A stretch of DNA of 64,000 nt, taken from positions 1 to 64,000 of the forward strand of contig NZ_RDQE01000010.1 of the NCBI RefSeq assembly GCF_003697845.1, given 5' to 3'. Of this stretch, positions 1,114-22,655 are shown piece after piece. Positions within the stretch are counted from its first letter, which is position 1. Each line of letters begins with the position of its first letter. The DNA is from Halobellus captivus. Its GTDB lineage: Archaea > Halobacteriota > Halobacteria > Halobacteriales > Haloferacaceae. A program made the position numbers and the translations under genes. Below the pieces are notes generated by a model. It saw only the letters and a program-made list of their open reading frames with translations, was not told the DNA's origin and searched no databases.

Positions 1114-4100
1114 TCAGGCCGCCGTGGACGCGTACTCGGGAGCGACGAGCGAGGCGCTGGTGTCGTTGCCGCCGTCGCCGGCGGCGTCGTTGCCGCTTCC
1201 GTCGCCGGAGCCGCCGTCACCGACCGGGCACTCGGGGTCGCCGGAGGGACAGTCGACGATCTCCTCCTCGAGTTCGACGGTCGCGGCGGCGTCGTCCTCG
1301 CCGATGACCTGGCCCTCGGTGACCTCGACCTGTCCGACGCTCCGGGTCGTGTACAGGTCGTCGTCGGTCGTCGTCCCCGTGGTGACCTCGTACGGGCCGG
1401 TGGCCCGAACGCTCGTGTTCGTGTACCCCTCCTCGGGGCCGAACTCGTCGTACCCGGTCGTCGAGTACGGTACCGTGAACTCGAAGCTCCCGTCGTCGTC
1501 GGCGGTCGCGTACTGGGTGTACTCGAACGTCTGGCCGGACGGCTTCTCCATCTCGACGGTCGCTTCGACCTCCTCGCCCGGCTCCGCGCCGCTGCCCTCG
1601 ATCGTCGCGCCCGGAACGCGCTCGAACGTCTTCACCCAGTCGTCCTGGAACGCGGCGAGGGCGGACTCGCCGAGGACCGCCTCGAAGTCCACGCCGAGCT
1701 GCTGGAGGACGCCGATCTGACCCGCGGAGGCTGACCTCCCCTGCGACTCCGTCGCGTGGACGAGCCGGTGGTGTTCGAGCGCCTCGACGCGCTCGGAGGG
1801 GAGCCCGCCGACGCCGCCGACCTGGGCGCTCCCGTCCTCCTCGACGTACTCGCGCGCCGCGGAGACGTTGTCGAACTGCCGGACCATGGTCTGTGGGTCC
1901 TCCGGCAGTACGGCGAGTTCGACCTGCTCGCCGTCCGCCGTCCGTGCCGTCTGGACGTCCCAGTCCACGACGACCGGCGCGGGCTCGACCGCGCTCCCGT
2001 GGTGTTCGTACAGCCGGATCATCTGGCTCTCGTGGTAGCGCTGGGTGTTCACCTGCATCACCGTCTGGAACCCGCCCTGCTGGGTCTGCTGGTAGACCAC
2101 GCGGTTGAAGTCGTCCCGACTCACGTTCCCCTCGTCGTAGAACGTGACGGGCGCGCCGAACTTGGAGTTCGGCGAGGCCATCTGCCGGTCGACCATCACG
2201 TACCGGGTGTTCTCTCCCTCGTCGCTCTGGCCCGCGAGCACGCCCCGCGCGGCCTCCTCGCTCGGTGCGAGCAGGTAGTTCGCGGCCTCGGCCGCGTTCT
2301 GTTGGAACGGGTTCGCGTTCGGGATCCGCTCCGCGCGGGTGGTGATCCAGTGGCCGTAGTCCCACCACGACTGGACGCCGTAGGCCCCCTCCGGGTAGTC
2401 GAAGTCGCCGTCGGCGGGACGCTCGTACGTCGCGTACGGGTCCATCGCGTTGTCCGCGCCCTCGAGCTCGCCCGGCTGGGGCGTCTCGTCGTTCATCCAC
2501 TGGAGGCTCTCGTCCCACTCGACGACGCTCCCGGGACCGGTGTTCGCGCCGGCGGTCCAGACCGGCGTCGCGACCGCCACGAGCGGGACGATCAGGACCA
2601 CGATCACGGCCGCGGCCGTCAGCACCTGCCAGCCCTCGATCTCCCGGACGGAGTCGAGCGACCGGAGGTCGATCGCGTCGAACGCGAGCTGGAGGAAGTA
2701 CGCCGCGCCGACCGCGACCACCACCGCGAGGTAGTAGTTGAACCGGCCCTGGGTGAACGCGGCGCTCCCGATGAACGCCGCCCACACGACGAAGTAGAGC
2801 TCCTCGGCGTCGTACTCGACGAGGAACGTCGCGCCGACGAGGAATCCCGCGGCGACCACGAGCCCGACCACCTGCCAGCTCACGCCGGCGAGGCCGCCGA
2901 TCGTGTCGTACACGCCGGGCAGCGCGTAGACGGACCCGACGACCGCGAGCGCGGCGGGGATGTAGAGGGTGTGGTTCGGGTCGTCGGAGCGATAGAGGGG
3001 TCGCGCGACGACGTAGAGGACGGCGGCGAGCGCGAGGAAGAACGCGAGCCCGTACTGGCCGAGGACGAAGTCGGCGAAGGAGGCCTCCTGGAGGGGCGGC
3101 TGTCCCTCGCCGATGGTGCGGAAGCTGGCACTCGCGCTGAAGCCGACGAAGTTCAGGAGGTTGCTCGTCAGCGTCGACCACAGGGAGGGGAGCGCGAGCC
3201 ACAGGAATCCGGCGGAGACGGCGATCAGCCCGCCGACGGCCGGCGGGTAGGTGTCGGGGTCCAACCCGTCGCGCGCTTCCCACTGGCGGGCGAGCCACGC
3301 GAGGAAGACCGCGCCGACCGCGACGCCGAGCGGGAGGGCGACCTGGAGGAGCGAGTAGGCGGTCGTGGCGAACGAGAAGTCGTTGAGCGGGATCAGCTGC
3401 ATCACCGCCGTGACGGTCATCGCGACCGCGCCCGCGAACGCGACCGGTTCGGGGCTCCGGTCGTGGTAGACGTCGCTCGTGATCTTCACCGCGAGGTAGA
3501 CGCCAGTGATCCCGACGAGGAGGATGCCCGGCTGCCACGTCCAGATGTAGAGGCCGAGCGCGACGCCGGCGGCGGTCGCGAAGGCGACGGGGCGGCGGAG
3601 GGCGTCCCGATCGCGGTCGACGACGAGTTCCCACACCGGTTTCTCGCGTTCGGCGACGCCGAAGGCGACGAGGAAGGCGAGGACGGCGAGGCTCTGGAAG
3701 AGCACCTCGGCCGCGCTGTGGTCGGGGAAGCCGACGAGAGAGTAGCTGAAGAACGTTCCGGGGAGGAGGGCTAAGACGACCGCGCCCGTGACCGCGGCGT
3801 ATCGGTCGACGAACCGGCGGGCGATGAGGTACGTGGGGATCGCGACGAGCGAGCCGGCGATCGGGGCCATGACGAGCATGACTTCCTCGGTGCTCCCCAT
3901 GATCGGCCGGGCGATCCAGACGCTGACCGCCATGATGTGGTCCCAGAGGGTGCCGAACTGGCCGGCTTGGTTGCCGAAGGGGAAGCCAGTCCATACGTCG
4001 AATGGCATCGTGTTCGGCCAGTTCTCGAGGAGGTAGTTCGTCTCTCGGAGGTGGTACCACGGGTCGTTGCCGCGGAAGTAGACTTCGCCGTTCTGTATGA

Positions 4101-4236
4101 AGTTGCCGTACGAGCGGGTCCGCGTCCAGAGCATGAGGGCGAGAATACCGACGAGTGCCGGGACGTGGTACCAGCGTTCGAGGAGATCGAGCGGGGACGA
4201 ACCCGACTCCTCGGACGAGTCCTGTTGCTGGCTCAT
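1114..4236 (-). CDS. aglB: Dolichyl-phosphooligosaccharide-protein glycotransferase AglB
   Basis: 1040 residues, normal for haloarchaeal AglB. It transfers the lipid-linked glycan to Asn in N-x-S/T sequons of S-layer proteins and archaellins on the outer face of the membrane. Visible features: an N-terminal helix, the first-loop metal motif G-N-D-P-W-Y-H (D58), about a dozen further helices to residue ~570, then the hallmark WWDYGHW motif at about 624-630 that binds the sequon hydroxyl residue, and a long acidic soluble C-terminus. It heads an operon with the DUF368 gene. The flippase gene ends 71 nt upstream. A TATA element at 4274-4279 implies its own promoter. Confidence 0.97.
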   Translation of the reverse strand: MSQQQDSSEESGSSPLDLLERWYHVPALVGILALMLWTRTRSYGNFIQNGEVYFRGNDPWYHLRETNYLLENWPNTMPFDVWTGFPFGNQAGQFGTLWDHIMAVSVWIARPIMGSTEEVMLVMAPIAGSLVAIPTYLIARRFVDRYAAVTGAVVLALLPGTFFSYSLVGFPDHSAAEVLFQSLAVLAFLVAFGVAEREKPVWELVVDRDRDALRRPVAFATAAGVALGLYIWTWQPGILLVGITGVYLAVKITSDVYHDRSPEPVAFAGAVAMTVTAVMQLIPLNDFSFATTAYSLLQVALPLGVAVGAVFLAWLARQWEARDGLDPDTYPPAVGGLIAVSAGFLWLALPSLWSTLTSNLLNFVGFSASASFRTIGEGQPPLQEASFADFVLGQYGLAFFLALAAVLYVVARPLYRSDDPNHTLYIPAALAVVGSVYALPGVYDTIGGLAGVSWQVVGLVVAAGFLVGATFLVEYDAEELYFVVWAAFIGSAAFTQGRFNYYLAVVVAVGAAYFLQLAFDAIDLRSLDSVREIEGWQVLTAAAVIVVLIVPLVAVATPVWTAGANTGPGSVVEWDESLQWMNDETPQPGELEGADNAMDPYATYERPADGDFDYPEGAYGVQSWWDYGHWITTRAERIPNANPFQQNAAEAANYLLAPSEEAARGVLAGQSDEGENTRYVMVDRQMASPNSKFGAPVTFYDEGNVSRDDFNRVVYQQTQQGGFQTVMQVNTQRYHESQMIRLYEHHGSAVEPAPVVVDWDVQTARTADGEQVELAVLPEDPQTMVRQFDNVSAAREYVEEDGSAQVGGVGGLPSERVEALEHHRLVHATESQGRSASAGQIGVLQQLGVDFEAVLGESALAAFQDDWVKTFERVPGATIEGSGAEPGEEVEATVEMEKPSGQTFEYTQYATADDDGSFEFTVPYSTTGYDEFGPEEGYTNTSVRATGPYEVTTGTTTDDDLYTTRSVGQVEVTEGQVIGEDDAAATVELEEEIVDCPSGDPECPVGDGGSGDGSGNDAAGDGGNDTSASLVAPEYASTAA

Positions 4237-4273
4237 TGTAGGTAGGGATTCGGAAAACGTGCTTAAGACTTGT

Positions 4274-4279
4274 TATATA
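4274..4279 (-). promoter_or_regulatory. TATA box of aglB-DUF368 operon
   Basis: A TATATA element centred about 40 nt before the aglB ATG predicts a start near 4250 and a leader of roughly 14 nt. This suggests that aglB can be transcribed independently of the upstream flippase gene. Confidence 0.5.
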
Positions 4280-4307
4280 CTAATCAGGCGTGTCGCCCGA
4301 TTATGAT

Positions 4308-5768
4308 TCAGCCGATCCGTTCGAATAGCGGTCGCTTCGGTAAGTTGTCGAGGATCGTCCCTCGAAATCGCGTGGAAATCGTGAAGAGTACGAAGAAGTA
4401 TGTCCCTGCACCTACCGCAACTAGTATTATGACCATGACGAAATTCGATTCGGCGATTCGATACGTGCTCTCGACGCGAAGGCTCACGGAAATGACGACA
4501 CCCATCACGCCCGCAGAGATCCACTGTCGAGCGATCTCCCCGAGAGGAATCGAAAATTCTAGCAGTGATGAGAGGGTCAGGTAAGCGACGGCGAGGCTGA
4601 CGGCAACCGATGCGGCTGTCGCAACGGCCGCGCCGACGACGCCGTAGAACGGAATCAAGGAGATGTTCAGTAAAACGTTGATGATGATGAACACCATGTT
4701 AATACGGAACGCCATCTCGGGACGGTCGACGGCGTTGAGCGTTGCCGTGAATTGTCGCTGATATCCCTGTATCAGGGTGGCAAGGATCAGAATCGAGAGA
4801 ACTGTTGCCCCCTGCGTGAATTCCTCACCGTAAACCCGGAGTAGACGCTCCCCGAGCAATGTTCCGCCGACTAAGCCTGGAATCAGTATCAGACCAGCGT
4901 ACGTCAGCGCCGTCTCGAACAAGTCGCGAACCGACTCCGTCCCCTCCTCGGATGACAGTGCACTCATTTCTGGGAACAGGGTTTCGCTTAGCGATCCGCC
5001 GAAAAGGATCAGAAACACCGCAATGTTCCATGCTGCCGTGTAAATTCCGACGAGCGAGGAAGATACGAAGAATCCGAGAACCGCCACATCGACCCAGTTG
5101 AACGCCTGAGTCCGGAGTGATCCCAGCCATGAGAATTTCGCATACTCGACGATCCGTCGATAGTGATCCCGAGTTGGAAACCGGATCCGGCTGAAGTTCC
5201 GGACGGCGATCACGGCGCCGGCGACCGCGACGAACAAGTAGCCGACAGCGTACCCAACGAACAACGCTCCGATTCCGTATCCAACAAGGATCGCGCCGAT
5301 CTGGACGAGGCTTCGGGTACCGGTACGAATCGGCTTGAACGCTCCCGAGACGTGGACGAGCCGCTGACCGTTCAGGACCGAGCTCACGGTCGACTGTGCG
5401 AGGTTGACGAACAAGAACATGATGACGACACCGGCCGCAGGGTAACCGATGTACTCGTTCACCCGTCGGTCGAACGAGAGGATGAGGACCCCGATCGCGA
5501 GGAGAAGCACGAAGCCGAGCGTGACGCCGGCGATGGCATAGGCGGACTGATCGCCGCCGTCGCTCTCGCTTACACGTTTGGTGATGGATTCCGGGATCCC
5601 CATGGTGACGACGATCCCGAGCCAAGAGACGGTCGAGAGTACGAGGTAGTAGGTTCCGAGAGTTCCGGATCCGAGGAATCGAGCGATAAATACGGTCGCC
5701 GCAAACCCGAGCGCAGATGCGAGAAACCGGGACCCGAAGTGAACGGCGGACGTTTGTCCCAGTCGCAT
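4308..5768 (-). CDS. Oligosaccharide flippase (Wzx/MATE-like, AglR-type)
   Basis: 486 residues from ATG 5766-5768; an upstream in-frame start would add 16 non-hydrophobic residues and is unlikely. Polytopic, about 12-14 helices, with the N-terminal pattern of polysaccharide transport proteins (FGSRFLASALGFAATVFIAR, then L-G-x-x-x-L-G-x-Y). The family moves lipid-linked oligosaccharides across the membrane. In Haloferax volcanii the related AglR takes part in delivering dolichol-phosphate-mannose to the outer face. Its position between aglB and sulfatase-like and glycosyltransferase genes fits N-glycan export. Codon use is AT-richer than in aglB, so this may be a transferred segment. The exact substrate cannot be read from sequence. 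Confidence 0.88.
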   Translation of the reverse strand: MRLGQTSAVHFGSRFLASALGFAATVFIARFLGSGTLGTYYLVLSTVSWLGIVVTMGIPESITKRVSESDGGDQSAYAIAGVTLGFVLLLAIGVLILSFDRRVNEYIGYPAAGVVIMFLFVNLAQSTVSSVLNGQRLVHVSGAFKPIRTGTRSLVQIGAILVGYGIGALFVGYAVGYLFVAVAGAVIAVRNFSRIRFPTRDHYRRIVEYAKFSWLGSLRTQAFNWVDVAVLGFFVSSSLVGIYTAAWNIAVFLILFGGSLSETLFPEMSALSSEEGTESVRDLFETALTYAGLILIPGLVGGTLLGERLLRVYGEEFTQGATVLSILILATLIQGYQRQFTATLNAVDRPEMAFRINMVFIIINVLLNISLIPFYGVVGAAVATAASVAVSLAVAYLTLSSLLEFSIPLGEIARQWISAGVMGVVISVSLRVESTYRIAESNFVMVIILVAVGAGTYFFVLFTISTRFRGTILDNLPKRPLFERIG

Positions 5769-5834
5769 ACATTCACGAGTGTTGGTCAGACCATTAAGAC
5801 CGCTGTTTGCGAGCACACGACACGAGTAAATACG

Positions 5835-7253
5835 TCACGTCATGTAGCCAAGCTCGTGGAGACGGCGTTCGACCGTCCCCTGAGGCTCGTTTCCGTCCGT
5901 GGCGACGCCAACAGGAGAGAGCTCGTCAACGACATCATCGACATAGGTTCTGTTTATGCCCGTATCAGGAGGAGTACGGCGTGGTGACGGCTCGTACCGA
6001 ATCCCATCGTTACGTCGAATGGCATCGACGACGACGTGATCGTCCTGTTCATGACAGACCGCGTGCCACGGACCGAAGTACGGCTCCCGCTCTACAGCGG
6101 GGAGTGGAAGTTCGTCTCCCGGCTCTTCGACACGGTAAGAGGTAGTTATCGCGTCACCACTCGGCGGAACGAAATCGGGATTCTCCCCGGCACGGGCGGC
6201 GGCAACCGCGGTTGGGAACCGAGTGAGAGTCGCGGGCGTGTGAACGACCTCGTCTCGACTTCGACCAGGAGGTTTGACCACCAGCGGTACGTGCGCCAAT
6301 TCGTCGCCGATCCCCCAGCTGTGATCGATCAATTGGACCGAATCGTTCAGCACGCTGTACTCGCCGAATCCCTCTCCGTGATCGCTTGTCACGACGACGA
6401 GCGTGTCGTCGAGAACGCCCGCATCCGCGAGTTCATCGAGCAACCGCCCCAGATAGGCGTCTGCCTGGCGGACGCAGTCGTCGTAGAGGCTTTCACTCGC
6501 GGCCAGTTCCCAGAACGGTCGATCCCCGAGGTAGCGTGTCGTGAGCGGACCTCCCATCGCCTCACGGTGGAGATCCCGGAGTGTAGCACCCCCCCACCGG
6601 TCGAACTCGTCAAGCGGCAGATACGGATAGTGGGCGTCCATGAGATTGAGACAGGCCGCCCACGGCCCCTCTCCTCTCTGTCGCCACTCCGAGAACTCGG
6701 AGACGTATTCACCGCCGTGTTCGATCCGTGGATCATACACCCCGCTCGTCGTTCCGATCTCCCTCGAAACGCCGTTAATAACTGAACGGAGCGGCGCGTC
6801 GCTACCGAGGCACGCACGGAGATACGCGACGTATCCCGGATCGCCGGGAACCGCCTCCGGCCCCAACGCGTCCGGGAAGACGAGTTCGTCACGTTTCGGT
6901 CCTGCCACGTGATCGAAAAAAGACGCGAGATTGGACGATTCGGCAACGATTGCGTTCGGAGTGAACAGTCCGGTCCGATATCCTTCCGCCGAGAGTGTCT
7001 CCCAGACCGTATGTCCCGGCCGTAGCTCGGATCCATGAGACGTAACCCGATGCTCTGCGACGTGGTACCCCGTAAAGAGGCTCGCATGACTCGACACACT
7101 GTGGATTCCGGGGGCCCGCGCGTTCGTGTACGTCGTCGCTCCGTCCGCGAACTCATCCAGGCGGGGTGTCGTCTCTCGAGGGTAGCCGAGATGACTGACG
7201 TTCCGTGCCCGAACGCTGTCGAGGACCACGAGGAGAACGTTGGGATCGGCCAT
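5835..7253 (-). CDS. Sulfatase-like hydrolase/transferase 1 (alkaline-phosphatase superfamily)
   Basis: 472 residues from ATG 7251-7253. This start is aligned with the paralogue at 9093, since both begin M-A-x-P-N-V-L-L-V-V-L-D-S. Superfamily features: the N-terminal metal strand VVLDSVRARN, an S-x-x-S-H-A-S-L-F-T-G segment where sulfatases place the nucleophile, and the C-terminal metal motif TSDHGEGFGE. The usual D-D pair is L-D and the classic C/S-x-P-x-R formylglycine motif is absent, so it may not be a true arylsulfatase. No signal peptide is evident, suggesting cytoplasmic action. It probably removes or transfers a sulfate or phosphate group during N-glycan building. Sulfated glycans are known in halophiles. 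Confidence 0.82.
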   Translation of the reverse strand: MADPNVLLVVLDSVRARNVSHLGYPRETTPRLDEFADGATTYTNARAPGIHSVSSHASLFTGYHVAEHRVTSHGSELRPGHTVWETLSAEGYRTGLFTPNAIVAESSNLASFFDHVAGPKRDELVFPDALGPEAVPGDPGYVAYLRACLGSDAPLRSVINGVSREIGTTSGVYDPRIEHGGEYVSEFSEWRQRGEGPWAACLNLMDAHYPYLPLDEFDRWGGATLRDLHREAMGGPLTTRYLGDRPFWELAASESLYDDCVRQADAYLGRLLDELADAGVLDDTLVVVTSDHGEGFGEYSVLNDSVQLIDHSWGIGDELAHVPLVVKPPGRSRDEVVHTPATLTRFPTAVAAARAGENPDFVPPSGDAITTSYRVEEPGDELPLPAVEREPYFGPWHAVCHEQDDHVVVDAIRRNDGIRYEPSPRRTPPDTGINRTYVDDVVDELSPVGVATDGNEPQGTVERRLHELGYMT

Positions 7254-7525
7254 AGCGGGATGTCCGGGTGTCCACATATGTAGACTTCGGTCAGCAGCGT
7301 CGGATCTAGGCCATGTTTTCCTTCCAGTAGAAGGATAGGTATTTCGCCGTCTATCCGTAAGCGAAAACTCATCTGGGACGAACCGACTCGATCAGATACT
7401 GTAGTGACGGTGAGCTTCAATGAATGGGCCTCTGAGAGTCTCTCACGCCTCCAGGCGGAGAAAAATCGTTACCGAGCCGAAGCGCACGTCCCCTCTACTA
7501 CGTCTAGGTCGGTACGCTGCTAAGG

Positions 7526-7752
7526 GTGACCAAGCACCACCGCTGGGGGACGAACGTCTTCGATCGTGATTGGGACGTACTTATGGTTCTTGACGCCTGT
7601 CGGGTCGTCGCGTTGCGCGCAGTCGTCAACGAGTACGACTTCCTCGGAGAGATCGATGCGATGAATTCGGTCGGCAGCACGTCCTTCGAGTTGCCCGAAA
7701 CGGAGCAGCTAGAACCGCCCGGTTACCTGCAGTGGGTCCGCTATCACCCACG
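7526..7752 (+). pseudogene. Remnant of a sulfatase-like gene (N-terminal part only)
   Basis: GTG at 7526 opens a frame beginning K-H-H-R-W-G-T-N-V-F-D-R-D-W-D-V-L-x-V-L-D-A-C-R, followed by E-Y-D-F-L-G and S-V-G-S-T-S. As I recall, this is the typical start of a haloarchaeal alkaline-phosphatase-superfamily protein of about 300 residues. After residue ~60 the similarity fades, and the frame runs into serine-rich nonsense antisense to the 3' end of the GT61 gene. The remaining two thirds, including the second metal site, are absent. Most likely it was truncated when the neighbouring cassette was inserted or exchanged. A short functional product cannot be excluded. Confidence 0.65.
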
Positions 7753-8943
7753 TTACTCGTCCAGTACTTCCGCGACCACTTCGTCAAGTTCGTCGGCATC
7801 GACCCGGATATCGACACCAACCTGTTCACCGTTGATGGGAATGTATCCGTGTTCGAGCGCCGTCGCGAGACGATCGAACGTCGCGATTCGCTTGTCTCCG
7901 AACAGTTCGACGAGCGTCAGATCGTCGCCGAAGACAACGTTCGTCAGTCCCGCACCGTGTGGACCAACGATGAGCTCGGCCCGCGAGAATAGCTCGATCT
8001 GTTCTCGGACGCTTAGGTTACTGAGCAGATACGTATCGATGTCATATCGGTTAAGGACTCGTTGGAGTTCGTCACGGTTCGCGACGCGCCGGACGGTCGC
8101 GTCGCCGCGACCAACGTAGATCCGCTCGGAACCGTCACCGTCCAGTGACGAGACGGATCGTCGCATCCGATCCCGGAGCCACGTACACTCCACAGACGTC
8201 GGGTCGGGGAAGGTCGGGACGACGAGCGTCGCCACGGCCGCGATACCCCCTTCCCACCGGCGGATCTCACCATCGTAATCGACTATCGAGAGCGATTCAT
8301 CGACCCATCCGGGAGGATCAGGGGGAATCAATACCGTTGGATATCGACCGGTTTCTTCGGCGTAAGCCTCGATCAGGCGGATTCGAACGAGACCCTCCGC
8401 CGTCCAGTGGTAGTAGTTGATCCACGGAGGGATCGCCAGTGTGACGAGATCGAGGCGGTCGTCCGGATCCACGTCGCCCGAGAGTGCTTCGAGCGTTCGT
8501 CGGATCCCGTTCTCTCGCATCGACTGCGCGATGGAAACGCCGGTTCGTCTCGTCTCGAGTGGCGGGGTGGCGACCGTGTCCGCGACGACCGTACCGTCGG
8601 CGGTAACCCCCGGACCTGTGGGCCCTAAAATCGTCGCATTAGGAATCTCACAGACGAATCGATCTCCCGGATCATATTGCTTGGGAGTCTCGCGGTTCCG
8701 GAATCCGGCTGCTCCCTTGATCCGCATCGATCCCTCGTGGGAGTCGGTGACGACTGGTTCGAACAGGGACGGAAGCGACGAACGCGACAGTATGTCGACA
8801 TGGTCGTGGAGGTATCGACGGTACACGAGCCGGTAGAGCAAAACGTCCTCAACGACGAGATCTGTCCCTGCGCGAACGAGTTCCCAAGGACCGTCCTGAC
8901 GATATTTCCGGATTGCGCGGCCCGGGACGTGTCCGAGTTTCAT
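7753..8943 (-). CDS. Glycosyltransferase family 61 (DUF563) protein
   Basis: 396 residues. The C-terminal half carries the GT61 signature: Y-V-G-R-G-D-A-x-x-R-R-V-A-N-R-D-E-L (around 275-292), the N-L-S-V-R-E-Q-I-E-L-F block, and G-P-H-G-A-G-L-T-N-V-V-F, the family's most conserved motif. Residues around 185-195 hold the N-Y-Y-H-W-T segment also typical of this fold. No clear signal peptide, so probably cytosolic or peripheral. It probably adds a pentose or hexose to the lipid-linked glycan. The gene is divergent from the sulfatase-like gene at 9093 and likely belongs to the same variable glycan cassette. Donor and acceptor are unknown. Confidence 0.85.
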   Translation of the reverse strand: MKLGHVPGRAIRKYRQDGPWELVRAGTDLVVEDVLLYRLVYRRYLHDHVDILSRSSLPSLFEPVVTDSHEGSMRIKGAAGFRNRETPKQYDPGDRFVCEIPNATILGPTGPGVTADGTVVADTVATPPLETRRTGVSIAQSMRENGIRRTLEALSGDVDPDDRLDLVTLAIPPWINYYHWTAEGLVRIRLIEAYAEETGRYPTVLIPPDPPGWVDESLSIVDYDGEIRRWEGGIAAVATLVVPTFPDPTSVECTWLRDRMRRSVSSLDGDGSERIYVGRGDATVRRVANRDELQRVLNRYDIDTYLLSNLSVREQIELFSRAELIVGPHGAGLTNVVFGDDLTLVELFGDKRIATFDRLATALEHGYIPINGEQVGVDIRVDADELDEVVAEVLDE

Positions 8944-8970
8944 CCGTATCGAAGAGTTTCATGTGGAAGA

Positions 8971-8976
8971 TATAAT
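8971..8976 (-). promoter_or_regulatory. TATA box of GT61 gene
   Basis: TATAAT on the plus strand (ATTATA on the coding strand) is centred 30 nt before the GT61 ATG at 8943, the spacing expected for a leaderless transcript. Confidence 0.5.
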
Positions 8977-9092
8977 GGTATCGAGACAATGGTCTTATTG
9001 TAGACCACAACCGGATACCGATTACTGGTAACTCTGGGGCGGATCGACGGATCCGAACCGATAAGCAGGGAGCGGACTGTGAATGTATGTGG

Positions 9093-10526
9093 ATGGCCCT
9101 CCCCAACGTTCTACTCGTCGTACTTGACAGCGTTCGTGCGAGAAACGTCGGATTGTACGGATACCATCGGGAGACGACACCGTTTCTGTCGACATACAGC
9201 GATCGTGCGACCGTCTATCGACAAGCCAGATCACCCGGGATACACAGTGTTGCCAGTCATGCCAGCCTCTGGACCGGTGCGGAAGTCGTTGAACACCAGG
9301 CTACCCGCCACACGGACGGGATACAGCCCGAAAAGACGATCTGGGGAGAACTGGCCGAGAACGGTTATCGGACGGGGATCTTCACCGTAAACTCGGTCGT
9401 CGCACATGCTTCGAACTTGGTTGAACCCTTCCACCTGGTAGAAACAGACGACTTCTCCGACAGCGCCGGGAAGCCGTTTCCCGACGCCCATGGTCCGACG
9501 GATGTCGCCGCTCACGAAGGGGTCGCGGGAAATCTGGCCAGGTCACTCCAGGACGATGCCCCGGTCAGGTCATTTCTCAACGCTGTGGACCATCTGTACC
9601 GGAAACAACGTGGACGACTCGAAACAAACCTCGATTCCGAGACACTGATCGAGCGGTTTCTTGAGTGGGAGGCTGACGTGGACGGCCCATGGGCAGCGTG
9701 TCTCAATCTGATGGATTCGCATTTCCCGTATGAACCCGCCGAGGAACACGATAAGTGGAGTGACGACACACTCGGATCGCTCCATGATGGGTTCGAGAAG
9801 CCACCCGCTAACGAGTTTGTTCAGGGGCGTCCTTGGTGGCAACTGGAGGCGTTCAAGAGCTTGTATGATGGGACGATACGGGAACTCGACGCCCATCTCG
9901 AACGGATCGTGACGGGACTTAAGCGGGCGGATGTCCACGACGAGACGCTCGTCGTGATCACGAGCGACCACGGCGAGGGGTTCGGCGAGATCAGCCGTCT
10001 CACAGGACGGACACGCCTGGTCGATCATAGTTGGGGGATTCACGAGGTCGTGACTCATGTTCCGCTTGTAGTCAAGTATCCCAGACAGACCGACCCGACC
10101 ACCATCAAGGAACCAGCTACAATTACTGGATTCCCAGACAGTGTCAGGGCAACACTGGAAGGGTCTTGCCCACGTGACTCGTTTGTTCCGGATGGACCAG
10201 TGATCGCCTACACAGAGCGACTCCTCGCCGATCACGCCGATGTTTTCGATGACAGCGATGAACCAGTGACTGCATACTACGGTCCGTGGCGGGCGGTATA
10301 CGAATCCTCGGATAACGGTGATGTCGTCAAGTACGCGGGCCATGGAAATAACGCACTGACGCTCCGCGTAAGGAACGCACAGGACGCGATACTGGTTGAT
10401 AGAACCGGTTCGGAGATGATAGATCGCGTATTCGATACGTTTGAGCCGGTAGATATACGACAAGAACCGGGAGATATATCGGAGAAGACGGAGGAACGTC
10501 TATCGGATTTGGGATATATACGATGA
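9093..10526 (+). CDS. Sulfatase-like hydrolase/transferase 2 (paralogue)
   Basis: 477 residues from ATG 9093; an ATG two codons earlier is possible, but this start matches the paralogue at 5835-7253. The motifs are the same: N-V-L-L-V-V-L-D-S-V-R-A-R-N-V, G-I-H-S-V-A-S-H-A-S-L-W-T-G, C-L-N-L-M-D-S-H-F-P-Y, and T-S-D-H-G-E-G-F-G-E near residue 290. As in the paralogue, the classical D-D and C/S-x-P-x-R motifs are altered, so the reaction (sulfate or phosphate ester cleavage or transfer) is uncertain. It overlaps the following GT2 gene by 4 nt (ATGA), which indicates translational coupling. The gene is strikingly AT-rich for this genome, a sign of transfer. Confidence 0.82.
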   Translation: MALPNVLLVVLDSVRARNVGLYGYHRETTPFLSTYSDRATVYRQARSPGIHSVASHASLWTGAEVVEHQATRHTDGIQPEKTIWGELAENGYRTGIFTVNSVVAHASNLVEPFHLVETDDFSDSAGKPFPDAHGPTDVAAHEGVAGNLARSLQDDAPVRSFLNAVDHLYRKQRGRLETNLDSETLIERFLEWEADVDGPWAACLNLMDSHFPYEPAEEHDKWSDDTLGSLHDGFEKPPANEFVQGRPWWQLEAFKSLYDGTIRELDAHLERIVTGLKRADVHDETLVVITSDHGEGFGEISRLTGRTRLVDHSWGIHEVVTHVPLVVKYPRQTDPTTIKEPATITGFPDSVRATLEGSCPRDSFVPDGPVIAYTERLLADHADVFDDSDEPVTAYYGPWRAVYESSDNGDVVKYAGHGNNALTLRVRNAQDAILVDRTGSEMIDRVFDTFEPVDIRQEPGDISEKTEERLSDLGYIR

Positions 10527-11440
10527 GCGAGATGGATAGTCTATGGACGTCGGATCCATGCGAAACGTCTGTTATTGTTCCCGTCTATGAGGACCCAGAT
10601 GGGATCCGAACAACGTTAGAATCGCTTACCATACAGTCTTGTGAACAGAAACATCACTACGTCGTTGATAACGGTTCGACGGATGAAACTCGTACGGTCA
10701 TACGATCGTATACACAGGCTCACGACTCGGTGACGTTGTTACTGGAAAACGAGATCGAAGGGTCCTACGCCGCCCGAAACAAGGGAATCCAGCACGCTGA
10801 TGGCCACGTGCTCGCTTTTCTCGATGCCGACGAAACTGTCGATGACGACTGGCTGGAAACCGCTCTCAACGCGATGAACGAACGGAAAATCGACTACCTC
10901 GGCTGTAACGTCGAACTCACGCTCCCCGAAGACAGTCTCGTCGGCCGATACAACGCCAGAACTGGCTTTCCAGTCGAACGATACCTCGAAGAAGAGCACT
11001 ATGCGCCCACCTGCGCACTGCTCGTTCGACGGGAGGTGTTCGAGGACATCGGGCTCTTCGACGCCAGATTGATCTCCGGTGGCGATCGTGAGTTCGGTGA
11101 ACGCGTCTATGAGGCAGGGTACGACCAGGGCTACGCCGAGGATGCGGTCGTCTTCCATCCGGCTAGAACGTCTTTCGGATCCCTCGCGAAGAAGAACTTC
11201 CGAGTGGGGCGCGGATTCTGTCAGAAGCAACGATACTATCCTGAGCGCTACGGGAAACCTGGAATCCCGCCGACACCAAGCGACCCAAGTGATGGTAACG
11301 ATGAGGGCGAACCAAACTCGCTGTACATACGACTCGCGTTCACGATCCTCTCGATAACGATGCTCGCCTGTCGCGGCCTCGGCTATTACTACGAGTTCCT
11401 CTTCGGTGAGGAGCACGACCTCGAAGCGCCTACGCGTTAG
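10523..11440 (+). CDS. Family 2 glycosyltransferase
   Basis: 305 residues with a GT-A fold: V-I-V-P-V-Y-E at the first strand, the nucleotide-binding region V-V-D-N-G-S-T-D-E-T, A-A-R-N-K-G, the metal-binding L-D-A-D (around 95-98), then G-G-D-R-E-F-G acceptor-site residues. A weak hydrophobic stretch near the C-terminus (YIRLAFTILSITMLACRGLG) may anchor it to the membrane. It is coupled to the upstream sulfatase-like gene by an ATGA overlap, so both probably act on the same sugar of the lipid-linked glycan. Its 3' end overlaps the convergent AglG-like gene by 11 nt. Sugar specificity is unknown. Confidence 0.88.
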   Translation: MSEMDSLWTSDPCETSVIVPVYEDPDGIRTTLESLTIQSCEQKHHYVVDNGSTDETRTVIRSYTQAHDSVTLLLENEIEGSYAARNKGIQHADGHVLAFLDADETVDDDWLETALNAMNERKIDYLGCNVELTLPEDSLVGRYNARTGFPVERYLEEEHYAPTCALLVRREVFEDIGLFDARLISGGDREFGERVYEAGYDQGYAEDAVVFHPARTSFGSLAKKNFRVGRGFCQKQRYYPERYGKPGIPPTPSDPSDGNDEGEPNSLYIRLAFTILSITMLACRGLGYYYEFLFGEEHDLEAPTR

Positions 11441-12368
11441 CCTTCTCCACGACGTTCGGCGTCACGATCGCGTACAGATACCCCAGACCTACGGCCCCAG
11501 TGAACGCGAAGATCGCGATCAGCTGTTTCACCTCCGGTACCGACGGGGACCGAACCAACCCCCTCACACGCCCGGGAACGAAGTGCGTCAACAGCTGGTT
11601 CAGGTACTCGCCCTTGTCGTCGGGGGCGTCGGGATAGAGGAGATCCATCACTCGCTTGGAGTACCCCTGCCAGAACGAGCGGAACAGTAACCACCGGAAC
11701 TCGCCTCGATAGTCGAACAGCGTGTGGTGGACCACGGCGTCCTCGGTGAACACCATCCCCTTCCCGTACTCATTTAACAATCGAATCCCGACCGGGGCCT
11801 CGTGCGCCTGGAGATGCTTGTCCCCCTTCCGGCCGGTGTTCGGGTCGTATCCACCGACCGCGAGGAAGGCCTCGCGCCGGTAGGAGATGTTCGATCCGTA
11901 CGTGTTCCGAACCTCCTCGCCGTCCTCGGCGAATCCCGGTTCCACACATCCCACCAGCCAGTAGAACTCCTCCGGGAAGAAATCCGGCTTCTTCGTCTGC
12001 CAGTCCGGACGGACATCGCCGCCGACCGCGATCGCGTCGGTTTCCTCGTACACGTCCACCAGCCCACGGACCCAGTCCGGTTCCGCGGTCGCGTCGTCGT
12101 CGATGAACGCCACGATTTCTCCGGAGGCCAGTTCGGCTCCTCGCGTCCGGCTGTAGGAGATCCCGCGGTTCTCCGCGTTGTTGTGAACGACGAGGTCCTC
12201 CTCGCATCCGAAGTCGTCTTGAACACGATCGTGGACCTCCTCGTTCCCGTCGACGACGAGCACGACCTCCAGCGGTTCGTACGTCTGTGCGAGCACGCTC
12301 TCGACGCACTCGGAGAACGGTCCGTATCGATCCATCGAGTACGTACAGACGACGACGGAGACCTTCAT
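11430..12368 (-). CDS. aglG: AglG-like GT2 glycosyltransferase (probable glucuronosyltransferase)
   Basis: 312 residues beginning MKVSVVVCTYSMDRYGPF, as in Haloferax AglG, which adds glucuronic acid as the second sugar of the N-glycan. Visible: V-V-D-G-N-E nucleotide pocket, N-R-G-I-S-Y-S-R-T-R-G, the metal motif F-I-D-D-D-A (around 92-97), and a C-terminal hydrophobic segment near 285-303 suggesting membrane attachment. Downstream of aglM (UDP-glucose dehydrogenase) on the same strand, it fits a pairing in which AglM makes UDP-glucuronate and this enzyme uses it. GC content is back to the genome norm here. The family call is firm; the exact step is inferred. Confidence 0.8.
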   Translation of the reverse strand: MKVSVVVCTYSMDRYGPFSECVESVLAQTYEPLEVVLVVDGNEEVHDRVQDDFGCEEDLVVHNNAENRGISYSRTRGAELASGEIVAFIDDDATAEPDWVRGLVDVYEETDAIAVGGDVRPDWQTKKPDFFPEEFYWLVGCVEPGFAEDGEEVRNTYGSNISYRREAFLAVGGYDPNTGRKGDKHLQAHEAPVGIRLLNEYGKGMVFTEDAVVHHTLFDYRGEFRWLLFRSFWQGYSKRVMDLLYPDAPDDKGEYLNQLLTHFVPGRVRGLVRSPSVPEVKQLIAIFAFTGAVGLGYLYAIVTPNVVEKANA

Positions 12369-12450
12369 TCACCGAAGATTCGACGAATCCTCGAATAAGG
12401 ATTGTGCTTCCGAAACGGAGGTCCACGTACGATCCTCCGTCGTCGGACAT

Positions 12451-12540
12451 TCATCGTTCGGTGGGTCGGATCATCTCGAACTCGCGAACTGCCCCGCCAC
12501 GGACGACGACGACGCCATCGCGGTCGACGTCCCACTCCAT
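12451..12540 (-). CDS. Possible 29-residue small protein between aglM and aglG
   Basis: In the 194-nt gap between aglM and the AglG-like gene, an ATG at 12538-12540 opens a 29-codon frame on the same strand. It starts MEWDVDRDGVVVVRGG and ends in a charged E-M-I-R-P-T-E-R tail. Purine-rich GGAGAGGAG lies about 15-20 nt before the ATG. Composition (acidic, Val-rich, GC-rich third positions) looks like haloarchaeal coding sequence, not noise. I do not recognise a family. It could be a genuine small protein or the last piece of a decayed gene. Confidence 0.35.
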   Translation of the reverse strand: MEWDVDRDGVVVVRGGAVREFEMIRPTER

Positions 12541-12562
12541 GCCGACGGTCCAACTCCTCTCC

Positions 12563-13894
12563 TCACCACGTCAACCCTTCATACGTAATCTCATCGCGCC
12601 GCTCGATTATCCGTCGGCCGTCGATCACGACCCGCTCAGCCATGGCGTCGAACTCGTCGTCCAGCGCCGCGAACTCGTCCCAGTCGGTGACCACGAGCGC
12701 GCCGCTTGCCCCCTCGAGTGCGGCCGCCGCCGAGTCCGCGTACTCTATGTCGGGGAAGCGCTCGCGCATCGTCTCGGTCGCGACGGGGTCGTAGCCGACG
12801 ACCTCGGCCCCACGCTCCTCGAGTCCCTCGATGACGGGGATCGCCCGGGAGTTACGCGTGTCGTCGGTGCCCGGTTTGAACGCTAATCCCAGAACCGCAA
12901 CGCGCTCGCCCGCGACGTCGACGTGGCCGTCCAGCAACTCGAGCATGCGTTCGGGCTGGCCGTCGTTCACCGCGACCGCGGCGTCGAGCATCGCGGGCTC
13001 GTACTCTCGCTCGCGGGCGACCGCGCGGAGCGCGTCGACGTCCTTGGGGAAACATGATCCACCCCACCCTACCCCCGATCGCAGGAACTGCGCGCCGATC
13101 CGGTCGTCGAGACCGACCGCGTCCATCACCTCGTAGGCGTCGATCCCGAACCTCTTACAGATGTTTCCGAGGTCGTTCGCGAGCGAGACCTTCGACGCGA
13201 GGAAGGCGTTGTTGGCGTACTTGATCGTCACGGCCGTCTCGGGGTCGGTCCGGACGACCGGGGCGTCGGCGGCGGTGCTCTCCAGGAGCGGCTCGTAGAG
13301 GGATTCGAGCCGGTCCGCGGCCCACGTCGACTCCGTGCCGAAGACGACCTTGTCCGGATCCCGGAAGTCCGCGACTGCGGTCCCCTCGCGGAGGAACTCC
13401 GGGTTCGTCGCGACCTCGACGCGGTCGGCGACCGTTCCCGCACCGCGACGGACCGCGTCGCGGATCGTCGCCACGCCGTCCGGCGTGACCGTGCTCTTGA
13501 CCACGACGAGGTGCCGGTCGTCCCCGGTCCCCGCGGGCGTCTCGCCGGTCGTCCCCGCCAGCGCCTCGCCGGTCGTCTCCGCGGCCGCGGAGAGCCCGGC
13601 GAGGTCGATGCTTCCGTCGGGGTTCGACGGGGTGCCGACCGCGAGGAACGTCACGTCCGAGTCGGGGACGGCGTCGTAGGAGGTCGTCGCCCGCAGTCGA
13701 CCGGATCCCCCGTTGCCGGCGTGTTCGGCCAGCAGGTCGTCGAGTCCCGGCTCGTGGATCGCCGCGTGCCCGTCGTTTATCGCCGCCACCACGTCGGGGT
13801 CGATGTCGATGGCGGTCACGTCGTGGCCCGCGTCCGCGAGGCAGGCCGCGAGGGTCGTTCCGACGTAGCCGCTGCCGACGACGCTCACTCTCAT
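12563..13894 (-). CDS. aglM: UDP-glucose 6-dehydrogenase AglM
   Basis: 443 residues from ATG 13892-13894, starting [18 protein letters not shown] with the Rossmann G-x-G-x-x-G; the frame upstream is low-quality sequence and is rejected. Catalytic region [12 protein letters not shown] holds the nucleophilic Cys and the conserved Lys/Asp. The substrate-binding F-L-R-E-G and the C-terminal domain [14 protein letters not shown] are also present. It oxidises UDP-glucose to UDP-glucuronate with two NAD+ in the cytosol, supplying hexuronic acid for the N-glycan. A 20-30 residue insertion after about residue 95 (G-E-T-P-A-G-T-G region) lengthens it slightly relative to Haloferax AglM. Confidence 0.94.
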
Positions 13895-14012
13895 GGCTGT
13901 GAGACCGCGTCCCGGACGCAAGAACGTTCCGCGTCTCGACCGGTCGGACATCGGGTCGGCCTCTTCCTCCGCCGTCGACCGGCTTAACCCGCCCGCCGCC
14001 GAAGCCGCTCGT

Positions 14013-14528
14013 ATGTCGACCGACGGGACGGGCTCCGCCGTCAGCACGCGGTGGGAACTGTTCGTCGTCGCCGCGTTGCTCGCGCTCCCCGTCGCCGTCG
14101 CTCCGGGTACGGGCGTGAATCCGACACTCGTGAGCCTCTGGGGGCTCGTCAACGTGGGCGCGCCCGGCTCGTCGCTCGGGATCGATATCTATCCGGTCTG
14201 GACCTACTTCGCGACCCAACCGAGGTCGTTCGGGTCGCTCCCGGCGTCTATCCGCGTCTGGCCGCTCGCGACCGCCTTCCACCTCGTCGCGACGATCAGC
14301 GCGGGGAGCGGCGTCGCGGTCGGCCGCGAGGACCGACGCGTGACGGGCGGCCTCCTGGTACTCGCTGCGCTCGCGAGCCTGTGGGTGGCGGTCGGCGTGG
14401 CGGGACGGTTCGGCGCCGGGACCGCTTCGGGGTGGCCCGCCGTCCTCCCGGTCGGCGCGGTGGCGACCCTCTCGGTCGCGGCGAGCGCGTACCGGCACGA
14501 CCTCCGTGCCGTCGTGATTCGCGGCTGA
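14013..14528 (+). CDS. Haloarchaeal membrane protein, TIGR04206-like
   Basis: 171 residues from ATG 14013, about four hydrophobic helices. It shows the sequence pattern [13 protein letters not shown], then a residue-80 [14 protein letters not shown] block and [15 protein letters not shown]. From memory this is the conserved haloarchaeal family TIGR04206, of unknown function. It is divergent from aglM with a 118-nt gap. No enzyme motif or ligand site is visible. The longer upstream frame overlaps aglM and is not used. Confidence 0.7.
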
Positions 14529-14600
14529 CCACGAGATCCGCGCGACCGCGGAGCGTCGTACTCGACCACGACGGGGAGAGCGCCTTTCGGGACGGCCGGC

Positions 14601-15464
14601 TCACCGGCCGTCGTCGTCGAGAAACACCCGGGCTCGGTCGATGAGTTCCGAGCGGACCGCTTCTCCGGTCGACCCCTCCCCGTCTCGGGAGACGGCCTGG
14701 TGGCGCTCCCGAAGGAACGCCTCGAACGCCCGCTCCGCGAGCGCGCCGACCGTGACCGGGTGGCCGTGGTCTTCGATCCGGGTCGCGATCCGTCGAAGGC
14801 GTTCGTCACTTCCGTAGGTCACGGCGGCGTCCGCGGGCGAAACGTCGTTCGTGACGTTGTCACGGTGAACGCCGGTGTCGCTACCGCCTCGCACGTCGGA
14901 CTCGGTTCGGATCACTCCCCGGCCGTCAGTCTTGTTCCGGACGACGACGCCCGCGGCGGGGCCGTCGTACCACGCCGACGACGGGACCGTGTACGCCTCG
15001 GGATCGAAGTCCCGGGCGCGGCGCTCTCGCTCGACGGCGTTCACCGCGTCGAGGCCGAGCCGCTCGAAGATCGCCTCGGCGGCGTCCGGCGGACGAAACG
15101 CGCCCGCGTCAGCCGACCACACGTCGTGTCCGAGAAACGACGGAGTCCGATCCCAGTCGTACTCGGTTCCGCGCCGACTGGTGGCCACGCCGAAGAAGAC
15201 GACGTCCGCCACGTCCTCGACCGCGTTCCGGAGTGCCTCCCGATCGAACCGCTGCCGGACGTGTCTGGCCGCGTGGCGGTACGCGGCCGGCAACTCGTCG
15301 GGGTCGTCGTAGACCGCGTCGCGGTCGCCGAACCGGATGAGTCCGGACTCGTCCATCCGGAACCGGAGGTGCGGGCCGTCGATCAGTTCGAGGAGCCAGA
15401 GGTGGCCGGTGAGGAGGTCGTCCGGCGCGCCGGCTACGGTCGGGATCGGTGGGTAGCGTTTCAT
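14601..15464 (-). CDS. Conserved haloarchaeal protein resembling RNA ligase, without catalytic lysine
   Basis: 287 residues, soluble. The N-terminal block H-L-W-L-L-E-L-I-D-G-P-H-L-R-F-R aligns with motif I of covalent nucleotidyltransferases (K-x-D-G), but the lysine position holds Leu. V-V-F-F-G-V-A resembles motif III and A-G-V-V-V-R-N-K resembles motif IV/V (E-G-x-V-V-x-x-K). The C-terminal third is a charged helical region. Similar haloarchaeal proteins are sometimes annotated as RNA ligase family. If the alignment holds, the enzyme cannot form the usual lysyl-AMP, so it may be a non-catalytic nucleotide or RNA binder. No operon partner is evident. Confidence 0.5.
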   Translation of the reverse strand: MKRYPPIPTVAGAPDDLLTGHLWLLELIDGPHLRFRMDESGLIRFGDRDAVYDDPDELPAAYRHAARHVRQRFDREALRNAVEDVADVVFFGVATSRRGTEYDWDRTPSFLGHDVWSADAGAFRPPDAAEAIFERLGLDAVNAVERERRARDFDPEAYTVPSSAWYDGPAAGVVVRNKTDGRGVIRTESDVRGGSDTGVHRDNVTNDVSPADAAVTYGSDERLRRIATRIEDHGHPVTVGALAERAFEAFLRERHQAVSRDGEGSTGEAVRSELIDRARVFLDDDGR

Positions 15465-15660
15465 GTCGTGTGGACGTGAGCGACGTCGGCCGGAGCCGAT
15501 CGATCGTCGGTATCGTCTCCGGGGCGGACCCCGATGGTTCTTGTGGCGGCACGACGGGTCGCACTCCGGTGACGGATCGGCGACCTGAAAGGCTCCACGG
15601 CATCACGGCATCACGGCGACCCCGGCCGATGAGGAAACACTCATGGCATCGGTCTGACTA

Positions 15661-18360: not shown

Positions 18361-18457
18361 ACCCGTCGACTGTGCGACCGTCGGACGTCGGCGGATCGGG
18401 ACCCGCTCGGCGCCGGTTCGACGTCGATACTGGCTCGATCCCGATCCGACATTGATA

Positions 18458-18471
18458 CGATCTCGAGATCG
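18458..18471. repeat. 14-bp perfect palindrome, possible operator
   Basis: CGATCTCGAGATCG reads the same on both strands. It lies 50-63 nt before the lipoprotein gene start, near where its promoter should be, and after the propeller-pseudokinase gene. It could be a regulator site or chance. Confidence 0.35.
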
Positions 18472-21201: not shown

Positions 21202-21207
21202 CCGTGT

Positions 21208-22650: not shown

Positions 22651-22655
22651 CTATG

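Follow-up and report, generated by a model that had tools for sequence, protein, structure and literature searches.

The window, by which we mean the whole stretch of 64,000 nucleotides that was analysed, carries a set of predicted glycan genes between aglB and aglM. The genes and features of this interval are as follows.

1114-4236, minus strand: aglB, predicted oligosaccharyltransferase, conserved left flank (NCBIfam TIGR04154, 928 bits against a cut-off of 450)
4237-4281: aglB-side half of the divergent promoter region ancestrally shared by aglB and aglG (aligned pairwise with five relatives)
4282-4307: left junction, a short imperfect palindrome lying between the aglB promoter and the flippase stop (sequence)
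4308-5816, minus strand: predicted flippase, polysaccharide/MurJ type, start codon uncertain (Pfam PF01943, PF03023)
5835-7277, minus strand: sulfatase-like A (sulfA), alkaline-phosphatase superfamily, probable glycan sulfotransferase (Pfam PF00884)
7448-7694, plus strand: remnant of a sulfatase-like gene, now a pseudogene of which the 5' part is left (79% nucleotide identity to locus L180; frames)
7753-8943, minus strand: predicted GT61-family glycosyltransferase (Pfam PF04577)
9087-10526, plus strand: sulfatase-like B (sulfB), probable glycan sulfotransferase (Pfam PF00884; alignment; AlphaFold model)
10523-11440, plus strand: predicted GT2 glycosyltransferase, likely chimeric, break at ~10748-10799 (maximum chi-square; sliding identity)
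11430-12368, minus strand: aglG, predicted glucosyl-dolichyl phosphate glucuronosyltransferase (NCBIfam NF041394, 509.5 bits against a cut-off of 440)
12369-12408: aglG-side half of that ancestrally shared promoter region (alignments; L180 matches up to 12406)
12409-12562: spacer at the right junction (the H. rubrum match starts only at 12565)
12563-13852, minus strand: aglM, predicted UDP-glucose 6-dehydrogenase, conserved right flank (NCBIfam NF041297, 682.8 bits against a cut-off of 670)

The names AglB, AglG and AglM each exceed curated NCBIfam cut-offs. At the nucleotide level aglB is 88% identical to that of Halorubrum sp. 48-1-W, and positions 12565-15465 are 82% identical to a like-oriented stretch of H. 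rubrum. AglG shares 83% of its amino acids with a Halolamina protein and 76-80% with the nearest Halorubrum copies. The flippase is 79% identical to that of H. aquaticum and 65-66% to those of 48-1-W and H. rubrum; the GT61 protein is 77% identical to its H. aquaticum counterpart, 68-69% to those of genomes G098 and G113, and 55% to that of H. rubrum. GT61 was the sole protein searched in a phage collection, where its relatives were absent.

A truncated gene had been noted at 7526 in the initial annotation, and we could confirm it as a pseudogene remnant. Positions ~7448-7694 correspond, at 79% nucleotide identity, to the first third of a 334-codon open frame in G098, a genome of another family; no match to the remaining two thirds was found. 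The upstream frame of the remnant is interrupted, and residues 1-55 of its open part match genes at the corresponding place in 48-1-W, H. rubrum and Halorubrum sp. Hd13. The listed open reading frame at 7526-8119 continues antisense into GT61.

Base composition of the aglB-aglM interval

Measured in 200-bp bins, GC content fell from ~0.70 to 0.48-0.67 between ~4.0 and 12.6 kb, and the lowest-GC 7-kb stretch of the window started at 4251 (0.578, the mean being 0.678). The cassette is indeed AT-rich: GC3 of its five genes was 0.61-0.69 versus 0.90-0.95 in the flanking aglB and aglM. Specifically, GC and GC3 were 0.695 and 0.945 for aglB and 0.703 and 0.900 for aglM, compared with 0.572 and 0.692 for the flippase, 0.617 and 0.661 for sulfA, 0.601 and 0.668 for GT61, 0.565 and 0.608 for sulfB, and 0.553 and 0.634 for GT2. 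With the window genes outside the block as the reference set, the codon-adaptation index was 0.30-0.40 for these five genes and 0.57 for aglG, and the 12 other genes tested reached 0.61-0.78. GC, GC3 and codon adaptation thus agreed with the initial description of the five genes as poorer in GC than aglB and aglM, and sliding profiles showed that composition across the region is non-uniform. That description had also placed aglG in the GC-rich flank and the edges at 4270-10530, and here it had to be revised. The GC content of aglG was merely 0.623 (GC3 0.834), level with sulfA, and since the AT-richness extends to ~12.6 kb, aglG belongs within the AT-richer block, which measures ~4282-12562 and is bordered by aglB and aglM.

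An AT-rich interval lies upstream of aglB in 43 of 45 Halorubrum loci (window included). Low GC as a sign of recent import was therefore ruled out; composition by itself is no proof of transfer, and this locus warns that low GC alone is uninformative on recency here.

The sulfatase-like pair

The two sulfatase-like proteins are 43% identical to each other at the amino acid level, and their genes lie 1.6 kb (sulfA) and 4.9 kb (sulfB) from aglB. SulfA is 78% identical to its H. aquaticum counterpart and SulfB 76%, and none of the genus's other aglB loci encodes a SulfB relative above 50%. Among 392 sampled genomes of the order, the nearest SulfB relatives after H. aquaticum came from other families (53-68%). 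Plasmids were rejected as recent donors of sulfB, the best matches being 34%, on Haloarcula replicons.

Canonical FGly sulfatases carry the activation motif C/S-x-P-x-R. At the aligned site SulfB has S-V-A-S-H and SulfA has S-V-S-S-H, and the proline and arginine are missing in 18 of 18 aligned sequences, unlike in a canonical FGly sulfatase. The AlphaFold model of SulfB (pLDDT 79.8) gave Z scores of 30.3 to 6hr5, 27.3 to 6hhm and 26.5 to 5g2u in a fold search (VIA), so that 5G2U and 6HHM were matched among many sulfatases. According to the available part of one study, these two structures come nearest to Agl30 and Agl31 of Halobacterium salinarum, proven sulfotransferases that likewise have an alkaline-phosphatase/sulfatase fold and occur as two per aglB cluster (PMC11980604). 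The likeness is one of fold and gene context as given there. The pair are more likely Agl30/Agl31-like sulfotransferases than sulfatases.

As an inverted pair, sulfA and sulfB share 89 nt at 76% and 69 nt at 80% identity. Recombination between them would flip the GT61 stretch only, which has the window's sense in H. aquaticum as well; there is thus no sign of an inversion driven by this pair, and this route was rejected.

Recombination within GT2 and aglG

For the window GT2, maximum chi-square analysis was run with four parent pairs and each time gave 0 of 5000 permutations. Of three relatives that served as controls, one was also positive (H. amylolyticum, 0 of 5000; 48-1-W, 2025; H. rubrum, 225), indicating that GT2 recombines or evolves unevenly elsewhere as well. 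In the aglG set, H. aquaticum gave a signal (0 of 5000), as did H. tebenquichense (4 of 5000) and H. vacuolatum (26 of 5000), and the window's own aglG gave none (1086 of 5000). Given these further signals, uneven evolution may be an alternative to chimerism. As judged from the sequences, crossovers likely occurred inside conserved GT2 genes, namely the window GT2 at 10523 and the aglG of H. aquaticum.

Orientation of the block and the split promoter region

The immediate neighbour of aglB is a divergent aglG-like gene in 31 of 45 genus loci, which rules out aglG as a conserved right border. The same arrangement was found in 7 of 22 loci examined from other genera, including Halolamina, Haloferax larsenii and Halopenitus malekzadehii, and the order in the window is therefore probably derived. 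In the window aglG lies at the far end of the block and shares its strand with aglB; the block therefore appears inverted. The two halves of the aglB-aglG promoter region are now 8 kb apart, with ~45 and 40 of 98 bp surviving, and clear similarity to relatives in the aglB half stops about the TTGTTATATAC element. Gene order in relatives agrees: H. rubrum (L034), 48-1-W (L031) and sp. Hd13 (L042) read aglB(-), aglG(+), GT2(-) and, further along, GT61(+), a remnant-type gene(-), sulfA(+) and flippase(+), with aglM(-) next after the flippase in H. rubrum. The window series is the reverse of this, with nucleotide matches in the inverted sense; L034 and L031 have extra sequence between GT2 and GT61, and the GT61 of 48-1-W is just 35% identical. 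Among the strains compared, none had identical genes in both orientations, and the inversion was not directly observed.

We think it fairly probable that a module exchange joined in GT2 was followed by a single inversion of the block from aglG to the flippase. The aglB-aglM interval would serve in Halorubrum as an exchange site for N-glycan genes. An incoming module, comprising the flippase, two sulfotransferase-like enzymes, a third since decayed, and GT61, would have been joined to a GT2-aglG pair through recombination within the GT2 gene. Later the entire block would have inverted in one event, with breaks between the back-to-back aglB and aglG promoters and between the flippase and aglM. 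The predicted products suggest a pathway in which AglM would supply UDP-GlcA, AglG would contribute an early GlcA, GT2 and GT61 would lengthen the chain, and sulfation by the two sulfatase-fold enzymes would take place on the cytosolic side; turning the glycan over would fall to the flippase, and attaching it to the S-layer protein to AglB.

In H. aquaticum (L038) the layout is aglB, aglG', flippase(-), sulfA(-), GT61(-), sulfB(+), GT2'(+), where primes mark that genome's own copies. Since its inner module has the window's sense, with aglG kept at aglB, the orientation may partly stem from the donor's layout. A course without any inversion would have an H. aquaticum-like ancestor lose aglG' beside aglB and gain GT2-aglG at the right end via a crossover in GT2. 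This would account for the inner module shared in identical sense at 76-79% amino acid identity, and for a chimera break in GT2, where such a swap is expected; the H. aquaticum aglG is itself chimera-positive, and in G098 aglG adjoins the flippase, so that such a layout does occur without inversion. However, by our count this course takes three events, two of them without homology, versus one recombination and one inversion. The 26 bp of the left junction offer space for a trace of aglG' at most, and the promoter halves are nearly complete, as after one clean break, although selection could also preserve them. We consider this course unlikely, if a serious candidate, and prefer exchange followed by inversion.

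Replacement of glycan genes at the locus

Gene content around aglB varied widely. The 401 predicted genes lying up to 13 kb upstream of aglB in 47 genus loci (window included) fell, at 50% identity, into 255 clusters, of which 200 were singletons; identical gene content was not found. The rpoB clade of the window, itself weakly supported, has six other members (92-96% nucleotide identity to the window), and these differed in cassette gene content; the window's inner gene set occurred, among 47 other genus loci, only in H. aquaticum, with a different aglG and GT2 there. In G098 a related module is unlinked to aglB, 1.19 Mb away, its flippase being 52-53% and its aglG 66-68% identical to the window copies. 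The Halolamina AglB is 44-49% identical to that of the window, versus 83% for AglG. Identity of aglB to six relatives was 78-83% at 4000-4149 and 62-70% at 4150-4299, the latter bin being partly non-coding; the far end of aglB was also variable (71-89% at 1150).

The trees conflicted. The window pairs with 48-1-W for aglB and with H. aquaticum for the flippase, the latter tree containing very long rows (G004, H. tebenquichense). AU tests rejected the swapped pairings (p 7e-48 and 6e-9), with groups picked after the identities were known and a quick aglB tree, and rpoB weakly rejected a pairing of the window with H. aquaticum (p 0.017). The interval upstream of aglB is hypervariable in content, and the sequence comparisons strongly support glycan-gene replacement at this locus. 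Of the replacement at conserved flanks that had been proposed initially, the exchange of variable genes is upheld by the variability, the tree conflict and the crossovers, and the role of aglG as conserved right flank is not.

Vertical descent under relaxed codon selection, with an ancestral and simply AT-rich cassette, would fit the low GC upstream of aglB across the genus. But rejection of a common history of aglB and flippase already refutes it for the flippase, the SulfB relatives beyond H. aquaticum lie in other families, and cassette content differs within the rpoB clade; we hold it to be very improbable.

A reversible phase-variable switch, in which the block flips within the population and alters expression of aglB or aglG, seems as improbable as vertical descent. 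The break does lie between two divergent promoters, and when gene pairs of one cluster were compared across the genus loci, 160 of 877 were opposite in sense, so that orientation changes are common at the locus. However, the junctions carry no inverted repeat (the best local inverted match is 9 nt), aglB and aglG each retain their own promoter-like elements, and the Pfam matches of the six intact block proteins and the remnant ORF include no integrase, transposase or recombinase. Six genes at 14.6-25.8 kb were likewise scanned against Pfam; two gave no match at all, and the matches of the others included no recombinase. A mis-joined contig seems the least credible explanation: the genome is a draft of 37 contigs and a contig start is no more than 14 kb away from the block, but comparison of the junctions showed no repeat of the kind that misleads assemblers, genes and promoter-like elements are intact at both junctions, and the independent H. 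aquaticum assembly has the inner module in the window's sense.

Comparison with known systems

The locus is a replacement genomic island of an already-known kind, to which an unusual inversion appears to have been added. Like replacement flexible genomic islands (Lopez-Perez et al. 2014, PMC4033161; Haloquadratum GI1, PMC4535781), it has different genes with the same surface role in the same place, conserved flanks whose phylogeny differs from that of the content, signs of recombination, and proteins free of mobile-element hallmarks. Unlike them, it was compared between species, one genome each, rather than between strains, and its breaks appear to lie inside GT2 genes and between two promoters. 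As far as the available part of that paper states, its authors saw no inversions among the Clade I islands of Haloquadratum (PMC4535781), whereas the window block appears inverted. A search of titles and abstract openings, with subscription journals mostly uncovered, found no description of an inverted aglB block in Halorubrum. The available portions of three studies describe aglB-anchored N-glycosylation clusters of Haloferax and Halorubrum that similarly have variable neighbouring glycosyltransferases, flippase or sulfatase-like genes, with H. lacusprofundi strains differing over a 37-kb region holding aglB and Haloferax strains in aglB-proximal genes (PMC5867893, PMC6137143, PMC6011602); unlike in those clusters, the window aglG is displaced and the promoter region split.

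We tentatively suggest, with more doubt than confidence, that in Halorubrum the two conserved GT2 genes close to aglB, aglG and its convergent partner, act as recombination anchors, crossovers in which would plug whole glycan modules in behind aglB either way round; in the window the socket itself would have turned, uncoupling the aglB and aglG promoters. If so, glycan type, including sulfation, would switch like bacterial capsule type, and some of the modules would reside far from aglB in other families. Deletion of aglB in H. lacusprofundi left the HRTV-DL1 life cycle unchanged and raised HFPV-1 titres, according to the accessible part of the report (PMC10384203). The locus offers a readable example of haloarchaeal surface-glycan change, with module exchange, a likely in-gene crossover, paralogue decay and a probable inversion in 8 kb. 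Since the genus comparison provides candidate anchors (aglG, its GT2 partner and aglM) and the strains H. aquaticum, H. rubrum and 48-1-W, a possible effect of N-glycan switching on virus or mating recognition could be addressed by defined module swaps.

Gene content of the aglB-aglM locus

The block between aglB and aglM (about 4282-12562) and its surroundings contain the genes below, with enzyme roles within the block predicted from protein families.

Genes of the locus (coordinates, strand, identity)
164-1108, minus, DUF368 gene, the first gene of the window
1114-4236, minus, aglB (AglB NCBIfam score 928, cut-off 450)
4308-5816, minus, flippase
5835-7277, minus, sulfatase-like A
about 7448-7694, plus, gene remnant
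7753-8943, minus, GT61
9087-10526, plus, sulfatase-like B
10523-11440, plus, GT2
11430-12368, minus, aglG (AglG NCBIfam score 509.5, cut-off 440)
12563-13852, minus, aglM (AglM NCBIfam score 682.8, cut-off 670)
15661-25838, downstream genes: PQQ-repeat protein; DUF6517 gene; carboxypeptidase-regulatory repeat protein; 480-aa protein without Pfam match; 1060-aa Tubulin_2-like protein

A short imperfect palindrome, possibly a terminator or scar, occupies the left junction (4282-4307) in the gap separating the flippase stop codon from the aglB promoter. The truncated gene that the initial annotation placed inside the cassette was borne out: at 79% identity, positions 7448-7694 match the opening third of an open frame of 334 codons in G098, a genome of another family. 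In the window copy the upstream frame is interrupted, and no match to the remainder of the G098 frame was found. No match to the remnant was found at the corresponding place in H. aquaticum, as if decay there were more advanced than in the window.

Base composition and codon use

GC3 was 0.93 for DUF368, 0.945 for aglB, 0.61-0.69 for the five cassette genes (flippase, both sulfatase-like genes, GT61 and GT2), 0.83 for aglG and 0.90 for aglM. The codon-adaptation index, computed against 12 genes of the window lying outside the block (with leave-one-out scoring within this set), was lowest in the cassette (0.30-0.40), intermediate in aglG (0.57) and highest in the reference genes (0.61-0.78). 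The AT-richer cassette described initially at 4270-10530 was thus confirmed by both measures, but aglG, taken as its GC-rich boundary, is intermediate, and the AT-rich stretch extends to about 12.6 kb.

We collected aglB neighborhoods from 47 other genomes of the genus which, with the window, gave 48 loci. With a threshold of 0.05 and N excluded, a GC drop over the 8 kb upstream of aglB was seen at 43 of 45 loci, window included; L040, L057 and L079 were dropped as too short, and the window's drop of 0.115 ranks 11th smallest. Low GC therefore characterizes the locus itself and does not mark recent arrival. GC is also lowered at about 18-26 kb of the window (mostly 0.62-0.68).

Replacement of glycan genes

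The initial annotation's proposal that variable glycan genes were replaced was upheld by conflicting trees and by the high variety of upstream genes among genus loci, and we consider replacement here nearly certain. In the aglB tree (18 rows, quick method) the window groups with 48-1-W (98% SH-aLRT), and a window-H. aquaticum constraint was rejected (p 7e-48). In the flippase tree (17 rows) it groups with H. aquaticum (100/100), and a window-48-1-W constraint was rejected (p 6e-9). For both tests the constrained groups were named after identities were known, and both trees contain long rows flagged by the program. rpoB places the window among H. halodurans, G019, H. rubrum, H. cibi, H. aquaticum and 48-1-W with weak support (83/70); grouping with H. 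aquaticum was weakly rejected (p 0.017).

Gene content within 13 kb upstream of aglB is extremely varied across the genus: 401 genes predicted at 47 loci by a simple gene finder, which can be expected to overlook some, grouped at 50% identity into 255 clusters, of which 200 had a single member. Among genus aglB loci, H. aquaticum is the single one to share the window's GT61 and sulfatase-like B at 70% identity or higher; the next GT61s of the genus reach 55% and 52%. Halolamina salifodinae AglB is just 44-49% identical, yet its AglG reaches 83% and its GT2 72-74%. In G098, counterparts of GT2 (57%), sulfatase-like B (68%), GT61 (68%), flippase (53%) and aglG (68%) are clustered at 2.49 Mb with an unbroken remnant-type gene, while aglB lies at 1.30 Mb on the same contig; modules of this sort thus need not sit beside aglB.

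Counting the window's own, 48 of 52 genus genomes carry aglB. An aglB match was absent from G001, G002, G049 and G058, three of which are 92-95% complete; these could reflect gaps or true aglB loss.

Orientation of the block

In H. rubrum, 48-1-W and sp. Hd13 the order is aglB(-), aglG(+), GT2(-), GT61(+), remnant-type gene(-), sulfatase-like A(+), flippase(+), followed in H. rubrum by aglM(-). Extra sequence separates GT2 from GT61 in H. rubrum and 48-1-W, and the 48-1-W GT61 is only 35% identical to the window's. The window has this series in the opposite order, enclosed by the same flanks, and carries sulfatase-like B in addition. Against H. rubrum DNA, aglB and window 12565-15465 match in the same sense; aglG-GT2, part of GT61, sulfatase-like A and the flippase match in inverted sense. 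In relatives, promoter-like elements of both genes occupy the intergenic region of about 98 bp that separates aglB from aglG. This region is split in the window: the part next to aglB (4237-4281) has stayed with that gene, and the part next to aglG (12369-12408) is found 8 kb off.

An aglG-like gene (49-80% identity) is divergent from aglB within 600 bp at 31 of the 45 genus loci scored (three of the 48 were too short to judge), with a gap of 96-103 bp in 20 of these pairs. It is divergent but farther away at four, was not found at E 1e-15 at eight, and lies on aglB's own strand at two, the window and L061 (from genome G050). At L061 the aglG-like gene (49% identity), 11 kb off, adjoins an aglM-like gene of opposite sense; this is possibly another rearranged locus. 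The divergent pair within 600 bp also occurs at 7 of 22 inspected loci of other genera (including Halolamina, Haloferax larsenii and Halopenitus malekzadehii), which argues that the window's order is probably derived, not ancestral.

Inversion of the block in one event is the reading we moderately favor. Its main rival, in which genes were gained and lost step by step starting from a layout like that of H. aquaticum, appears possible but rather doubtful. At the corresponding place in H. aquaticum (11686-11808 of locus L038) we observed 123 bp matching the 3' end of aglM; the remainder of aglM was not found there, nor was aglM seen at the corresponding place in 48-1-W.

Likely crossovers within GT2 genes

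By maximum chi-square, the window GT2 breaks at nt 226-277 of 915 (0/5000 permutations with each of four partners), being H. aquaticum-like before the break and of Halorubrum/Halolamina type after it. Among control GT2 genes the signal was weaker in 48-1-W (2025/5000) and H. rubrum (225/5000), and equal in H. amylolyticum (0/5000). H. aquaticum aglG breaks at nt 231-421 of a 1032-nt stretch (0/5000 in six of six comparisons), with lesser signals in H. tebenquichense (4/5000) and H. vacuolatum (26/5000); the same test gave no break signal for the window's own aglG (1086/5000). The breaks in the window GT2 and H. aquaticum aglG are consistent with homologous crossing-over within GT2 genes that are conserved; uneven evolution is another possible source.

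Putative sulfotransferases

Sulfatase-like A and B share 43% identity. The sulfatase motif is C-x-P-x-R; at this site 18 aligned relatives have S-x-(A/S)-S-H, in which both P and R are missing. D14, D294-H295 and H324, which we take to be metal-site residues of the family, are invariant in these 18. The predicted fold of sulfatase-like B (pLDDT 79.8) matched many sulfatases (486 chains at Z of at least 8; best 6hr5, Z 30.3), including 6hhm (Z 27.3, rmsd 3.8, 368 aligned) and 5g2u (Z 26.5, rmsd 3.2, 341 aligned). Zaretsky and colleagues give these two as the structures closest to Agl31 and Agl30, aglB-cluster proteins they report as proven to sulfate the Halobacterium salinarum N-glycan (PMC11980604); the likeness to sulfatase-like B is one of fold, through these shared structure matches. 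For Halorubrum sp. PV6, a sulfatase gene is likewise reported close to aglB, and the glycan is described as bearing a hexuronic acid that is sulfated or phosphorylated (PMC6137143). From these shared fold matches and the PV6 gene and glycan, our best guess is that A and B are putative sulfotransferases.

Relation to known replacement islands

Surface-glycan replacement islands exchanged by homologous recombination are described as established, one archaeon among them (PMC4033161), and the window is a further example of this type. Haloquadratum GI1 is a close parallel as described (PMC4535781). The unusual part is the inversion: the block appears inverted, whereas the same authors report seeing no inversions in Haloquadratum Clade I. 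A 37-kb difference region between H. lacusprofundi strains is reported to contain aglB (PMC6011602), and aglB-proximal clusters are reported as variable in Haloferax (PMC5867893). On the initial annotation's suggestion of perhaps altered virus or mating recognition, deletion of aglB in H. lacusprofundi reportedly left HRTV-DL1 unaffected but raised HFPV-1 titres (PMC10384203).
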